Source of the DNA: Nitrospirota bacterium
GTDB taxonomy: Bacteria; Nitrospirota; 9FT-COMBO-42-15; HDB-SIOI813
Reading direction: 5' to 3'
Assembly (NCBI GenBank): GCA_020846775.1
Contig: JADLDG010000023.1
Coordinates: forward strand, 1 to 64,000
DNA: 64,000 bases
Position numbers and translations under genes: made by a program. This document shows, in pieces, positions 2,925 to 55,294 of this stretch (its first letter is position 1; the number at the start of each line of letters is the position of its first letter). The notes beneath the pieces were generated by a model. That model did no database searches. It was given only the letters and a program-made list of their open reading frames with translations, and was not told where the DNA came from.

Positions 2925-3212
2925 ATGGCACGTTCTGTCAAAAAAGGTCCTTTTATAGATTCTCATCTTTCAAAGAAAATTGAAAATATGAATCGCGGAG
3001 GAGAGAAAAAGATATTAAAGACATGGTCAAGACGGTCAACTATAATCCCGGAAATGATAGGACATACCATAGCAGTTCACAACGGGAAAAAGTTTATCCC
3101 GGTCTACGTAACTGACAATATGATTGGTCACAAGCTTGGAGAGTTTTCCCCTACCAGATCGTTTAAGGGGCACTCAGGCGGTAAGACGGAGAAATCTACC
3201 TCATTAAAATAG
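2925..3212 (+). CDS. rpsS: 30S ribosomal protein S19
   Basis: 95 residues, starting [19 protein letters not shown], with the conserved [20 protein letters not shown] segment and [13 protein letters not shown]19 is in the 30S head and contacts S13 and the A-site region. It starts five bases after rplB. Downstream the operon is interrupted by an unusual 104-base spacer carrying short direct repeats. Confidence 0.98.
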
Positions 3213-3316
3213 TGATAAGTTTGAAGAAGCGATGAGCGTTAAGAAGCAATGAGCCATGAGTAGTTAGTAATGAGTTTGGGGAGATTATTTAGTTAATAAG
3301 GGGAGTTGTTAATTTT
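3213..3316 (+). repeat. Spacer with dispersed GCAATGAG-type repeats, copy A
   Basis: This spacer separates rpsS from rplV, genes that normally abut. It holds degenerate direct repeats: AAGAAGCGATGAG at about 3226, an exact AAGAAGCAATGAG at 3241-3253, then CATGAG and GTAATGAG. The same 13-mer occurs exactly at 6708-6720 and 38889-38901. All three sites follow a stop codon in an intergenic gap. GGGGAG near 3300 may serve as the rplV ribosome-binding site. No ORF or hairpin was recognised. Confidence 0.8.
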
Positions 3317-3667
3317 ATGGAATCTAAAGCAATATTAAGATATGCGAGAGTGGCGCCAAGGAAGGCCAGGCGGGTGATGAATCTTGTCCGAGGCAAGAAT
3401 GTGGGAGAGGCGCTTAATATACTTAAATTTCTTCCTCAGCATGCATCTTTTACGATTGATAAAGTACTGAAATCAGCTATAGCAAATGCCAGACAGAAAA
3501 ATATTGGCGATGTAGATGAGCTGGTTATCAGCAGTGCCTTTGTAGATCATGGACCGGCGCTTAAAAGGTTTAAGGCGGGCCCGATGGGCAAGGGAATGAG
3601 CAGAAAGAAGCATATGAGTCATATAACAGTTGTCCTGTCTACAATAGAGGCAGCTAAGCGTCGTTAA
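3317..3667 (+). CDS. rplV: 50S ribosomal protein L22
   Basis: 116 residues with the L22 core: [20 protein letters not shown] near the start and the tunnel beta-hairpin before [17 protein letters not shown]22 contacts all 23S rRNA domains; its hairpin is where macrolide-resistance changes arise in other bacteria, and no disruption is visible here. The repeat-bearing spacer precedes it. Confidence 0.98.
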
Positions 3668-5932: not shown

Positions 5933-6499
5933 ATGGGAAAAGGTCAAATAAAAAATAGTTTGCCAAGGTTAAAGGAAAAATATCAGAAAGAGGTTATTCC
6001 GGCACTTATTCAGGAGTTTTCTTATGAAAATCCTGTCAGGGCGCCTCATATCAAGAAGATTGTAGTCAACGCCGGAATTGGAGAGGCCGTTCAAAATGTT
6101 AAAATGCTGGATGGTGTGGTTGAAGAGCTGAAACAGATTTGCGGGCAGCAGCCACTGGTAACAAAGTCGAAGAAGGCTATTGCCAGCTATAAACTTCGAG
6201 AAGGAATGCCAATAGGCTGCAAAGTTACCCTCAGGGGAAACAGAATGTATGAGTTCCTGGACAGATTAATCAGTATAGCATTGCCGAGAATCAGGGATTT
6301 CAGGGGGATTAATGGAAATTCCTTTGATGGTATGGGAAATTATACACTGGGTTTGAAAGAACAGATAATTTTCCCGGAGATAAAGTATGAGACTGTGACA
6401 TTTGTTCATGGATTTGATATCACAATAGTTACAAGCGCTGAGAATGACAATGAGGGTAAGGCCCTGTTGAGATTGATGGGGATGCCGTTTAGGAAATGA
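5933..6499 (+). CDS. rplE: 50S ribosomal protein L5
   Basis: 188 residues with the L5 signature around [12 protein letters not shown], the segment [20 protein letters not shown], and the C-terminal [21 protein letters not shown]5 binds 5S rRNA and contacts P-site tRNA. Spacing of 29 bases after rplX; rpsN follows after 19 bases. Confidence 0.98.
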
Positions 6500-6518: not shown

Positions 6519-6704
6519 GTGGCAAAGAAGTCTCTGATAGCAAAATCAAAACTGGATCCCAAGTTTAAGGTCCGCAAATATAACCGATGTCCGTTGTGCG
6601 GCAGATCAAGGGCGTTTTTGCGGAAATTTCAGATGTGCCGTATATGTTTCAGGTCTAATAGCCTGTTGGGTAATATCCCGGGCGTGATTAAGTCGAGCTG
6701 GTAA
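6519..6704 (+). CDS. rpsN: 30S ribosomal protein S14, zinc type (type Z)
   Basis: 61 residues from GTG 6519 with GGAGGG upstream. It carries four cysteines at residues 24, 27, 40 and 43 (RCPLCGRS and MCRICFRS), the zinc-binding C+ short form of S14. S14 is a late-assembly 30S head protein. The C+ form implies zinc-dependent ribosomes; no C- paralogue is in the window. Confidence 0.98.
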
Positions 6705-6812
6705 CATAAGAAGCAATGAGTGTAAAGCAATGGGTAATGAGGTAAACATAAATAAGTGTTGATGACCTGGATTCTAACGGTTTGGAATCCTATTAATTTG
6801 GAGTAATTTAAT
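6705..6812 (+). repeat. Spacer with dispersed GCAATGAG-type repeats, copy B
   Basis: The 108-base gap between rpsN and rpsH, genes usually packed tightly. It contains an exact AAGAAGCAATGAG at 6708-6720, AAAGCAATGG at 6724-6733 and GTAATGAG after it; the last two also recur near 38.9 kb or 3.26 kb. Further on is a small inverted repeat GGATTC/GAATCC (6769-6774 and 6785-6790, 10-base loop) and a GGAG ribosome-binding site for rpsH. No ORF was recognised. Confidence 0.8.
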
Positions 6813-7211
6813 ATGGTAATGACAGATCCAATAGCAGACATGTTGACCAGAATCAGGAATGCGAGTAATCAAAAGCATTCAGCTGTTGATATACCTATAT
6901 CTAAGTTGAAACTTGAGATGGCGAGGATTCTTAAAGAAAGTGGTTTTGTTCAAAATTACAACGTTGATGGAGAAGGTAAAGATAAAAAGATATCTGTACA
7001 GTTGAGGTACAACCGGAATGATGCCCCGGTCATTACAGGTTTAAAACGTATCAGTAAACCAGGATGCAGGGTTTATGTAGGTAAAGATGAGGTCCCCCGG
7101 GTAATAGGAGGGATTGGGATAGCCATACTTTCGACTTCGAGGGGACTTCTTTCAGATAAAGAAGCACGGAAAGATAAAGTAGGCGGTGAAGTTTTGTGTT
7201 ATGTTTGGTAA
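6813..7211 (+). CDS. rpsH: 30S ribosomal protein S8
   Basis: 132 residues with the S8 start [19 protein letters not shown] and the C-terminal [19 protein letters not shown] plus [10 protein letters not shown]8 is a primary 16S rRNA binder and in E. coli is the translational repressor of the spc operon. ATG 6813 is preferred by GGAG nine bases upstream; ATG 6819 would also give the family start. Confidence 0.98.
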
Positions 7212-8160: not shown

Positions 8161-8658
8161 TTGAAGAAGATTAATCCAGATGAGCTTACTTTAAAGGATA
8201 AAGTTGTTCACATAAATCGCGTTGCAAAAGTCGTTAAAGGCGGCAGGAGGTTTAGCTTCAGTGCCCTCGTTGTTATTGGTGATGAAAACGGATGTGTCGG
8301 ATTTGGTAAGGGCAAGGCAGCCGAAGTACCGGAGGCGATACGGAAGGCCATGGAACATGCCAAGAAAAATCTTGTAAGATTTCCTTTAACTAATACTACT
8401 GTGCCTCATGAGATCATTGGACATTTTGGTGCAGAGGCAGTGGTCATCAGGCCGGCTTCATCAGGAACCGGGATAATTGCCGGTGGGGCAGTCAGGGCGA
8501 TGATGGAAGTTGCCGGTGTACAAAACGTATTATGTAAGTCTCTTGGAAGTGGAAATCCTTTTAATGTCGTACGTGCCACTTTAGAAGGCTTAAAATTATT
8601 AAGGGTGCCGGAGGAAGTCATTAAATTACGCGAAGCAGCAATTGGAAGTGTGCAATAG
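8161..8658 (+). CDS. rpsE: 30S ribosomal protein S5
   Basis: 165 residues from TTG 8161. S5 domains are clear: [20 protein letters not shown] (dsRBD-like fold) and [20 protein letters not shown]5 helps decoding fidelity and mRNA unwinding. TTG 8161 is favoured by the adjacent GGGGGGTG, though the spacing is short; ATG 8149 is in frame but has no ribosome-binding site. Confidence 0.95.
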
Positions 8659-10678: not shown

Positions 10679-10747
10679 GTTAAAATGAGTTCAGCTCACT
10701 GTTTATATGATAAGAAAGTGGAAAGACATGGATGGTAGAAGGTCAGC

Positions 10748-11386
10748 ATGAATTTTATACTGTTAGGACCGCCAGGTGTAGGCAAGGGTACTCAGGCATG
10801 GAAGCTTGCTGAAAAATATGGCATTCCGCAGATATCCACAGGGGATATGCTGCGTGAGGCGATACAAAATGGGACTGAACTTGGCATACAAGCCAGATCA
10901 TATATGGATAGTGGTAAACTCGTGCCTGACGAGGTTGTTATCGGGATAGTAGAAGAGCGGTTGAGGATGAGTGATTGTGTCTCTGGTTGGATACTTGACG
11001 GATTCCCGCGGACCATTCAACAGGCGTCGGCATTGGATATGATGTTAAGCAAAAATAATTCCAAAATTGACCATGTCCTGAGTCTTGAGGCTGCAGAAGA
11101 GGATGTTGTAAAGAGGCTAAGCGGAAGAAGGAGTTGTGAGGGATGCCAGAAAACATTTAACTTGCATTATAATTTGCCAAAGAAAGAAGGAGTCTGCGAC
11201 AGTTGTGGCGGCCGGCTGGTTCAGAGAAAAGATGATCAGGAAGAAACTGTCAGAAAGAGGATGATGGTATACAGGGAAAGTACAGAACCACTTATTTCGT
11301 ATTATAAAGAACGTGGGACGTTAAAAAGGGTAGACGCGAATGGAGACATTGCGGGTGTATTTGATTTAATTTGTTCCATGCTTTAG
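10748..11386 (+). CDS. adk: Adenylate kinase, zinc-containing long form
   Basis: 212 residues. Catalyses AMP + ATP to 2 ADP. P-loop GPPGVGKGTQ at residues 7-16, AMP-binding DGFPRT near 84-89, and a LID domain with four cysteines at 130, 133, 150 and 153 (CEGC and CDSCG) that form the structural zinc site seen in many Gram-positive and some Gram-negative enzymes. Placement between secY and map is conserved in many phyla. map follows three bases later. Confidence 0.98.
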   Translation: MNFILLGPPGVGKGTQAWKLAEKYGIPQISTGDMLREAIQNGTELGIQARSYMDSGKLVPDEVVIGIVEERLRMSDCVSGWILDGFPRTIQQASALDMMLSKNNSKIDHVLSLEAAEEDVVKRLSGRRSCEGCQKTFNLHYNLPKKEGVCDSCGGRLVQRKDDQEETVRKRMMVYRESTEPLISYYKERGTLKRVDANGDIAGVFDLICSML

Positions 11387-37998: not shown

Positions 37999-38877
37999 AT
38001 GCATGCTCTCCTGTTAAAGGCTAAATATCCCTTTGTGATTCCGCTGATAGCTGCTTTGGCATTTTCCATATATCTTGTTCAGCATCAGATAATAGTGCAT
38101 AAGGGTATAGAGAAAAAGATCGAAGAGTTTGTAACACTCCCCAGGGGGGAATATCTCAAGCCCGCGGTTTTAGGATATGAGCAGGTGATTGCGGATTTAA
38201 TCTGGCTTAAGACTATACAGCTGATAGGAGAGGATACGGTTACACCGGATGGATATGACTGGATATATCATGCCCTGGATGTTGTGACCACACTCGACCC
38301 TAAATTTGCCTATGCCTATCAACTGGGCGGGGTTACCCTTTCAGTGCTCGGGAAGGCGCCTGAGAAGAGTAATTTATTACTAATTAAAGGGATGAGGGAA
38401 AATCCAGAGGTATGGCAGATACCCTTTTACATAGGCTTTAACAATTTTTTCTACCTTAACGATTACAAAACGGCTGCTGAGTATATGGCTAAGGCATCTG
38501 AACTGCCAGGAAATCCTGCGTATTTGCCAAAGCTTGCAGCAAGGCTTTATGTGAAGGCAGGAGACCCGGAAATAGCCCTTGAATTTCTATCTAACTTCTA
38601 TAAGGAAACCAAGGACGAGAATGTCAGGGAGGCTTTAGATCAGAGAATAAAAGAGGTAATGGTGGAGAGAGATGCAGGATTTCTGGAAGTTGCGGTAAAA
38701 AGATATAAGGATATTTATAAAGCTAATCCTGAAAGTCTGATGCAGTTAGTTGAAAAGGAGATTATTGCCTCCTTACCTCATGAGCCATTTGGAGGCTTTT
38801 ACTATTTTAATCCTGAGGATGGGAGGGTATACAGCAGTGTGGTTAAAGAGAGAATGAAGTTGTATGGGAAACCATGA
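37999..38877 (+). CDS. Membrane-anchored TPR-like protein, PilG-like by context
   Basis: 292 residues. One N-terminal membrane helix (about 11-27), then a helical region with TPR character (AYAYQLGGVTLSVLGKAPEK, DYKTAAEYMAKASELPGNPA). It sits directly after two pilins and before an ABC ATPase and permease. This order matches Myxococcus pilA-pilG-pilH-pilI, where PilG is a poorly characterised protein needed for pili. Homology was judged from layout and general features only. Its TGA stop lies inside the repeat-bearing spacer. Confidence 0.6.
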   Translation: MHALLLKAKYPFVIPLIAALAFSIYLVQHQIIVHKGIEKKIEEFVTLPRGEYLKPAVLGYEQVIADLIWLKTIQLIGEDTVTPDGYDWIYHALDVVTTLDPKFAYAYQLGGVTLSVLGKAPEKSNLLLIKGMRENPEVWQIPFYIGFNNFFYLNDYKTAAEYMAKASELPGNPAYLPKLAARLYVKAGDPEIALEFLSNFYKETKDENVREALDQRIKEVMVERDAGFLEVAVKRYKDIYKANPESLMQLVEKEIIASLPHEPFGGFYYFNPEDGRVYSSVVKERMKLYGKP

Positions 38878-38970
38878 GCAATGAATAGAAGAAGCAATGA
38901 GACGAAGAAGTGTGAGTTCAAAGCAATGGCAATGAGTTTTTGTTGTCTGTATTCTCAGCCAGAGGGATAA
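38878..38970 (+). repeat. Spacer with dispersed GCAATGAG-type repeats, copy C
   Basis: Contains AGCAATGAA right after the stop codon, an exact AAGAAGCAATGAG at 38889-38901, AAAGCAATGG at 38920-38929 and GCAATGAGTTT next to it. The same units occur in the rpsS-rplV and rpsN-rpsH gaps. No ORF or terminator was seen; AGAGGG precedes the ABC ATPase start. Confidence 0.8.
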
Positions 38971-39906
38971 ATGGATAAGGTCGTTATAAAAACGGAGAAT
39001 TTGACAAAGGTCTTTAAGGTTGGTTTCAGGGGAAAGGGAGTTGCTGCATTAAAAGGACTTAGCCTTGAGGTAAATGAAGGTGAAATATTTGGTTTTCTTG
39101 GTCCTAATGGGGCAGGTAAGACAACCACTATTAAGATTCTTATGGGATTTATATATCCCACTTCCGGAAAGGCATGGATATTAGATAAAGAAGCAAATGA
39201 TATTGAAGTAAAGAATCATATTGGATTCCTTCCTGAGCAGCCATATTTTTATGACTATCTTACCTCGCTGGAATTCCTGCGATTCTATGGACAATTATTT
39301 GGATTGGAAAGAGATGACTTAAGGGCGAGGATGGACAATCTTCTCTATTTGGTCGGACTTGAAGATGCATCAGATACCCAGCTTCGGAAATTTTCCAAAG
39401 GAATGCTCCAGAGGATAGGAATCGCCCAGGCATTGATTAACAGGCCTGACCTTATAGTTCTTGATGAACCTATGTCCGGGCTTGATCCGATAGGTAGGAA
39501 GGAAATACGGGATATCATCCTGCGGCTTAAAGATGATGGTAAGACCGTCTTTTTCAGCACCCATATAATCCCTGATGTTGAGATGATCTGTGACAGGGTT
39601 GGTATACTTATGAAGGGTGAACTGGTAAACGTAGGCAGGTTGGATGAGATAATGGATGCGAAGGTCAAATATGTGGAAATTAATGCAAGGAATGTCAGCA
39701 AGGAGATGTTGGCACATATGGAGGCTATGGGTTTCTCAATCTATGAAACCTGGGAGAATGCAGCAATAAGGGTATCTGATGAAAACAGAGTTGATGTAAT
39801 ATTGCAACTGATAATGGATGGAAAGGGGAGGGTCGTCTCCGTTATACCTCATCGTGAAACCCTGGAAGAACACTTTTTGAAAAAGATAGGAGGAGGGAAT
39901 TCTTGA
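38971..39906 (+). CDS. ABC transporter ATP-binding protein, PilH-like by context
   Basis: 311 residues. Walker A GPNGAGKTT at 44-52, Q-loop in LPEQPYF, signature KFSKGMLQRIG at 140-150, Walker B LIVLDEPMSGLD at 161-172 and H-loop STH at 196-198. A C-terminal extension of about 90 residues follows. Belongs to the ABC-2/CcmA-like group and pairs with the permease that overlaps its stop. In Myxococcus the equivalent PilH is needed for type IV pili; here the role is inferred from the pilins upstream. Confidence 0.9.
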   Translation: MDKVVIKTENLTKVFKVGFRGKGVAALKGLSLEVNEGEIFGFLGPNGAGKTTTIKILMGFIYPTSGKAWILDKEANDIEVKNHIGFLPEQPYFYDYLTSLEFLRFYGQLFGLERDDLRARMDNLLYLVGLEDASDTQLRKFSKGMLQRIGIAQALINRPDLIVLDEPMSGLDPIGRKEIRDIILRLKDDGKTVFFSTHIIPDVEMICDRVGILMKGELVNVGRLDEIMDAKVKYVEINARNVSKEMLAHMEAMGFSIYETWENAAIRVSDENRVDVILQLIMDGKGRVVSVIPHRETLEEHFLKKIGGGNS

Positions 39907-55169: not shown

Positions 55170-55188
55170 ACGAGAATGCACTCCTCAA

Positions 55189-55294
55189 GTCCCCCCTTAC
55201 CCCCCCTTTTCAAAAGGGGGGTACATTATTCCCTCATTAAAAAGGAAGGGTAATTAATTTCCCCCTTTGAAAAAGGGGGATTAAGGGGGATTTT
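55189..55294. repeat. MITE-like inverted repeat between hldA and kdsB
   Basis: Two imperfect copies of about 33 bases in opposite orientation, the left arm about 55191-55221 and the right arm about 55261-55294, each with an internal hairpin of C-runs and G-runs around TTTTCAAAA or TTTGAAAAA. About 40 AT-rich bases lie between. The right arm reaches into hldA and gives its last codons and TAA stop. Elements rich in CCCCCTTT/AAAGGGGG are common dispersed repeats in several bacterial phyla; the family here is unnamed. It does not interrupt any enzyme domain. Confidence 0.8.

Follow-up and report, generated by a model that had tools for sequence, protein, structure and literature searches.

Short arrays of degenerate 7-nucleotide units, each unit with AG in a constant phase (AGCAATG and AGTNNAA in this Nitrospirota bacterium, AGAAGYA, AGTGAAT and AGTAAGC in sister genera), lie directly behind genes, nearly always with the AG strand as the mRNA sense strand and with the 5' end of the array abutting or overlapping the upstream stop codon while the remainder extends into the intergenic gap. 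The informative landmark for these arrays is the stop codon, rather than the gap or transcription, as they begin at the stop or across it, in the sense orientation.

Three such arrays are present in the window, by which we mean the whole 64,000-nucleotide stretch of DNA that was analysed (Table 1). The initial annotation had drawn attention to three copies of the 13-mer AAGAAGCAATGAG, and all three were found to be exact matches on the forward strand and beyond chance expectation (a mean of 0.01 copies in 100 shuffled sequences, none of which reached three copies). It had also placed the copies within runs of degenerate units just after stop codons, two of them between ribosomal genes and all separating genes that normally lie closer together. 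The surroundings of the 13-mers are indeed degenerate GCAATGAG runs, each array starts a few nucleotides or less past a stop or, in the case of the first, 11 nt past it, and Pfam identifies the genes flanking the first two gaps as ribosomal. The rpsS-rplV gap is 104 nt long here compared to 32 nt in the nearest relative (genome G001). The TGA stop codon preceding the third array itself reads as belonging to a unit-like CATGAGCAATGAA. No known RNA family was matched anywhere in the window when Rfam gathering scores were applied. Heptad arrays are often followed by another dispersed element, a CCCCCTT...AAGGGGG-type hairpin (at 55170-55280 in the window and in many gaps of the source genome, G000, of G001 and of the sister-genus genome G007), and in one ortholog pair heptads were present in one species and this hairpin in the other, at the same gene end.

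Table 1. Heptad arrays of the window, the genes on either side of them and the gaps in which they lie
Feature	Position	Strand	Remarks
Heptad array 1	3224..3274	+	4 units plus spacers; contains 13-mer 3241-3253; begins 11 nt past rpsS stop
Heptad array 2	6708..6741	+	3 units; 13-mer at 6708-6720; begins 3 nt past rpsN stop (6704)
Heptad array 3	38878..38936	+	13-mer at 38889-38901; begins 0 nt past (immediately after) TGA stop 38875-38877
rpsS (S19), upstream of array 1	2925..3212	+	Pfam PF00203
rplV (L22), downstream of array 1	3317..3667	+	Pfam PF00237
rpsN (S14), upstream of array 2	6519..6704	+	Pfam PF00253
rpsH (S8), downstream of array 2	6813..7211	+	Pfam PF00410
292-aa gene, upstream of array 3	37999..38877	+	weak match only: TPR_14, E 0.00026, 21.8 bits, below the Pfam cut-off of 23.5
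ABC transporter ATPase gene, downstream of array 3	38971..39906	+	Pfam PF00005
Gap rpsS-rplV	3213-3316		holds array 1
Gap rpsN-rpsH	6705-6812		holds array 2
Gap, weak-TPR gene to ABC ATPase gene	38878-38970		holds array 3

The motif is not limited to the window, as the source genome (2.73 Mb in 136 contigs) contains 42 copies of AAGAAGCAATGAG and none of the reversed word. Two congeneric species carry 6 and 8 copies, and among the other 96 genomes searched 17 have one or two copies and the remainder have none. The 13-mer is the commonest string within the short degenerate arrays of AGCAATG and AGTNNAA units, and GCAATGAG was the most enriched 8-mer in the co-directional gaps of a sample of 809,612 bases from nine contigs of the source genome. 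There were 46 copies of GCAATGAG in 44.5 kb of co-directional gap (approximately 1.03 per kb), compared to 45 in 739 kb of coding sequence (0.06 per kb, several of these being located at the ends of coding sequences) and one in 14.9 kb of divergent gap (0.07 per kb), these densities being upper estimates because eight of the nine contigs were picked from those listed with the 13-mer, a choice by which strand and position are unaffected. Neither outcome that the initial annotation named as refuting, absence elsewhere in the genome or lack of intergenic enrichment, is therefore borne out. In the co-directional gaps 45 of the 46 copies were sense and one was antisense, with 21 of 22 sense in G001, and the orientation of arrays tracks the gene and not the strand of the contig (on contig C23 of the source genome, + copies lie among + genes and - copies among - genes).

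Arrays as a whole behaved in the same way, 39 of the 42 from G000 and G001 being found in the sense orientation in co-directional gaps, and 36 of those 39 started between -29 and +17 nt from the upstream stop. The other three were called at 208, 27 and 304 nt, but our simple in-house gene caller had missed rpsN (and possibly other short genes too) and the first of these distances is really 3 nt, taken directly from the sequence; the 304-nt distance, that of the array at C91:9026 in G000, stands as an exception. The array overlaps the stop in 20 of the 39 cases, and there the array itself supplies the letters of the stop codon (TAA followed by GAAGCAATGAG, or CAA TGA). C-termini of orthologs with and without an array were of the same length in most of the pairs shown, which means that arrays begin at the natural stop and that the genes are not truncated. 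This position relative to the stop codon is too precise for chance.

At two loci in the source genome (L027, C91:19228-19265, and L029, C91:48079) the gene that follows takes its start codon from the final units of the array (MSNE...), and one of these two arrays has a 4-nt ATGA stop/start overlap. Translational coupling through such ATGA overlaps was considered as a general role and rejected; it was seen in a few arrays extending as far as the next start (array-to-start distance of -12 nt) but is not general.

The sister genus, represented by G007, uses different words (AGAAGYA, AGTGAAT) with the same placement rule. In a sample of 304,333 bases (contigs C1-C19 as numbered, together with the S3 contig) 193 gene 3' ends had a gap of 30 nt or more and 45 of them bore a period-7 array. 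Of these 45 arrays, 37 started within 20 nt of the stop, compared to 13.4 expected if starts were spread evenly, a number as high as this being reached in none of 100,000 simulations. The anchoring to the stop persists in gaps of 150-300 nt. When periods from 4 to 12 were compared, period 7 was found in 38 gaps and any other period in at most 6; the words were AGAAGTA, AGAAGCA, AGAAGTT, AGTAAGC and AGTGAAT. The 5' side of the AG strand was the nearer to an ORF for 42 of the 46 arrays outside coding sequences, with five more arrays lying inside them. Tails bearing arrays had a higher unpaired probability than other tails (0.61 versus 0.45 in G007 and 0.55 versus 0.46 in G000), although base composition alone accounts for this low structure, which needs no selection beyond it.

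The initial annotation had read the repeats as tandem-repeat insertions resembling the heptamer repeats of other bacteria, and its interpretation as a whole was partly supported, the resemblance (described below) being upheld while ordinary tandem expansion was not. For 37 distinct AGAAG-type arrays from G007, comprising 231 units, neighbouring units were identical at a rate of 0.072 compared to 0.114 after shuffling, which sets them apart from slippage repeats (SSR/VNTR), and the last two bases of adjacent units agreed at 0.196 compared to 0.231. Neighbouring units are thus no more alike than units taken across arrays, which disfavours simple tandem duplication. Single arrays in other genomes of the family (G008) do show a local order of units and so slippage may still apply in some of them.

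Comparison of G000 with G001 showed both turnover and persistence. Four-fold sites have only 43% identity between them (14,143 sites in 140 ortholog pairs) and are near saturation. At 149 ortholog ends, arrays were present in both genomes at 4, in G000 only at 5, in G001 only at 1 and in neither at 139 (Fisher p 3e-5); a looser earlier count (4, 5, 5 and 210 of 224) also counted poor ortholog matches, of which several involved a single G001 gene. The same words were found at the corresponding gene ends in four of the ten array-bearing ortholog pairs, the other six having an array in a single species, and in the shared arrays the words are kept but unit-by-unit alignment is impossible. A clean gain or loss was seen behind a gene which, from its C-terminal sequence, we take to be ATP-synthase-like, with AAATAAGCAAGGAGG in G000 and AAATAAGCAATGAG...TTAGCAAGGAGG in G001. 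A MITE would be expected to have terminal inverted repeats and a target-site duplication; this one empty/filled pair shows (T)AGCAA on both sides, and inverted second arms occur at some loci only. The array behind rpsS was found in neither G001 nor G002, nor in most members of the family, and no preference of arrays for a class of gene stood out.

The placement differs in G002, where 13 of 16 co-directional copies, on contigs chosen for the motif, were antisense and upstream of the start codons of Pfam-confirmed genes, and where four of five arrays were antisense, three of these lying within 10 nt of a called ORF start. Antisense arrays are rare in G000, G001 and G007, and array orientation in G003 is mixed. 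An artefact of gene calling was ruled out for the antisense G002 arrays, as Pfam confirms the strands of four adjoining genes, the arrays being located, or at least readable, within the reading frame at the N-terminal end of these genes. At L228 (G002:C5, approximately 1183-1290, 5980-6150, 8390-8530 and 10690-10750) antisense arrays translate to the hydrophobic core of apparent signal peptides (LLIAHCSLLIAHC), AGAAG heptads ahead of this core encode a basic stretch, RRQKTE, and the composite KIRRQKTE..CLR.LKPTATH.SLLIAHC is common to two genes. A repeat may here have come to serve as an export signal. Inverted second arms of arrays were seen at some loci only: in what appears by eye to be the fusA-tuf gap of the source genome (L018, C48, approximately 150-310) an inverted pair of arrays has its AG strands facing inward and could potentially form a long hairpin, and pairs resembling this one are present in L227 (G002:C4) and L230 (G003:C27).

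Across the phylum, 65 of the 295 genomes contain AGAAGNNAGAAGNNAGAAG, which is nearly absent from one family (f9), while G007 has 523 occurrences, compared to 2 for the reversed control. Among 20 genomes from outside the family (small samples, one without a usable window) none gave a clear period-7 signal behind stops, with single arrays in two. On viral contigs, 9 of the 11 AGTGAAT arrays that were sense and co-directional started between -9 and +16 nt from the stop, and 15 of 20 TAACTGA arrays, taken in the AGTTATC sense, lay no more than 20 nt from a stop. Viral AGAAGYA arrays were not anchored to stops (among five that had a sense gene behind them, only one was), and four distinct GCAATGA arrays were divided, two starting -1 and 2 nt from the stop of a sense gene and two not doing so. 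At L302, L303, L305 and L306, all classed as viral, exact GCAATGA heptamer arrays start 0-4 nt past stop codons.

The study of the heptamers of Xanthomonas (GGGAATC) and Nostoc (GGGGA(C/T)T) describes 7-nt intergenic tandem units which favour aligned ORFs and are rare between divergent ones, which lie either sense within 50 bp of a stop (overlaps included) or antisense and no more than 50 bp upstream of an ORF, nearer to the 5' ORF, and which sometimes form inverted pairs; they were interpreted as G-quadruplexes (PMC4692102). Measured against that description, the arrays studied here share the 7-nt tandem unit (with a period-7, and 14, signal in gaps), the co-directional preference (39 of 42 arrays; 46 GCAATGAG copies in co-directional gaps of G000 and one in divergent gaps) and the sense placement near the stop and closer to the 5' ORF. 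Unlike those repeats, AGCAATG, AGAAGYA and AGTGAAT lack a GGG tract and are not G-quadruplex formers, and because the arrays obey the placement rule without GGG, the rule does not depend on quadruplexes; a further difference is that G000, G001 and G007 use nearly only the sense/stop half of it. The Nitrospirota-type arrays are therefore best classed as a variant of the intergenic heptamer repeats, outside the G4 family. TAACTGA direct repeats occur in Beggiatoaceae, Cyanobacteria and some Bacteroidetes and end 1 nt before start codons in ‘Maribeggiatoa’ (PMC4679880). The arrays described here resemble them in being heptameric, intergenic, strand-biased, present in ribosomal-protein operons, without gene-class logic and patchy, but have another word and begin at stop codons, not before starts.

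A full-text search of open-licence PubMed Central papers, by array sequences and by subject (heptamer, Nitrospirota, stop codon), found no published description of these arrays. The STRR repeats of heterocystous cyanobacteria are likewise short tandem heptanucleotides between genes. REP/BIME elements, which are associated with RAYT transposases, often lie directly behind stop codons, but there is no palindromic REP unit here, and Y1_Tnp (PF01797), found in 7 of 10 genomes of the family, is absent from the array-richest genome, G007, which rules out RAYT/REP as a requirement for arrays.

Taken together, the sense strand, the anchoring to stops and the persistence of the arrays direct attention to the mRNA immediately behind the ribosome as it terminates. 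Our preferred but tentative suggestion is that the arrays most likely serve as mRNA elements that lie past the stop codon on the sense strand, are rich in purines and lack structure. If active, they would work at the mRNA level, as a weakly structured run of purine-rich sequence directly behind the terminating ribosome, and might hold the post-stop region open for release of the ribosome, for re-initiation at the next cistron or for protection of the untranslated RNA. Phase, strand and place of the array would outweigh the exact word, and units would be exchanged rapidly among many arrays, giving words that are alike within a genus and different between genera. Nearly as likely as such an mRNA element, given that arrays are gained and lost and favour no particular class of gene, is a functionless dispersed repeat, spread by slippage, recombination or a mobile process and surviving at gene ends as the least harmful place, its strand and stop anchoring resulting from the process itself or from purifying selection against other placements. 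The patchy distribution in the phylum, with family f9 nearly devoid of AGAAGNNAGAAGNNAGAAG, the differing presence at orthologous ends, the clean AAATAAGCAAGGAGG versus AAATAAGCAATGAG...TTAGCAAGGAGG pair and the existence of inverted second arms all agree with this. A functionless repeat does not, however, predict sense-only placement right after the stop, where the array is untranslated, nor anchoring to the stop in gaps of 150-300 nt, and the lack of local duplication among G007 units and the persistence of words despite near-saturated four-fold sites also argue against it.

The strand, the start at the stop and the purine bias (A+G of 0.76 in G007 array tails versus 0.52) would all be accounted for by a transcription-coupled process in which ribosome-free, purine-rich RNA past the stop forms R-loops and restarts of repair or replication breed repeats on that strand, but we consider this distinctly unlikely as it leaves unexplained both the period of 7 and the fact that neighbouring units are not copies of one another. 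Docking of a specific RNA-binding protein seems less probable again. Many units read (ARN)(ARN)N, ARN being the triplet bound by the distal face of Hfq, a protein with a gene in 8 of the 10 genomes of the family and in all 4 of the near-complete ones, and the sense strand and 3' position would suit such a site; the AGTGAAT and AGTGGAA units, however, fit ARN poorly, and Hfq is not known to require a period of 7. TRAP, which reads spaced AG triplets, was absent from all three genomes searched. That the heptads are backup translation terminators, putting stop codons in all three frames, is very improbable: AGCAATG and AGTGAAT arrays do have stops in every sense frame, but AGAAGCA/AGAAGTC arrays at the same place (G008) are stop-free, as is AGTTATC, which is how the TAACTGA arrays read in sense at 15 of 20 gene ends, and these stop-free units (AGAAGCA, AGTTATC) rule out such a backup as a general role.

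The proximity to stops of the viral AGTGAAT (9 of 11) and AGTTATC-sense TAACTGA (15 of 20) arrays hints at a wider and rather unlikely generalisation of the mRNA-element role, in which heptad arrays would be a 3'-end element widespread among bacteria and phages and set by phase (7 nt), strand (AG in the sense) and place (the stop), and not by word or G-quadruplex, with the Xanthomonas, Nostoc, TAACTGA and Nitrospirota-type repeats as dialects that would all be read by something at termination. For a large class of bacterial ‘junk’ heptamers the explanations so far have been separate ones: quadruplexes, regulators at start codons or simply satellites. If the rule holds, they would share one address, the first post-stop bases on the mRNA sense strand, and in G007 such a post-stop element, as yet unstudied, would be present at approximately a quarter of the gene 3' ends whose gap is 30 nt or longer. 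Whether in these bacteria the sequence past a stop codon controls the release of ribosomes, re-initiation or the protection of mRNA also becomes a testable question.
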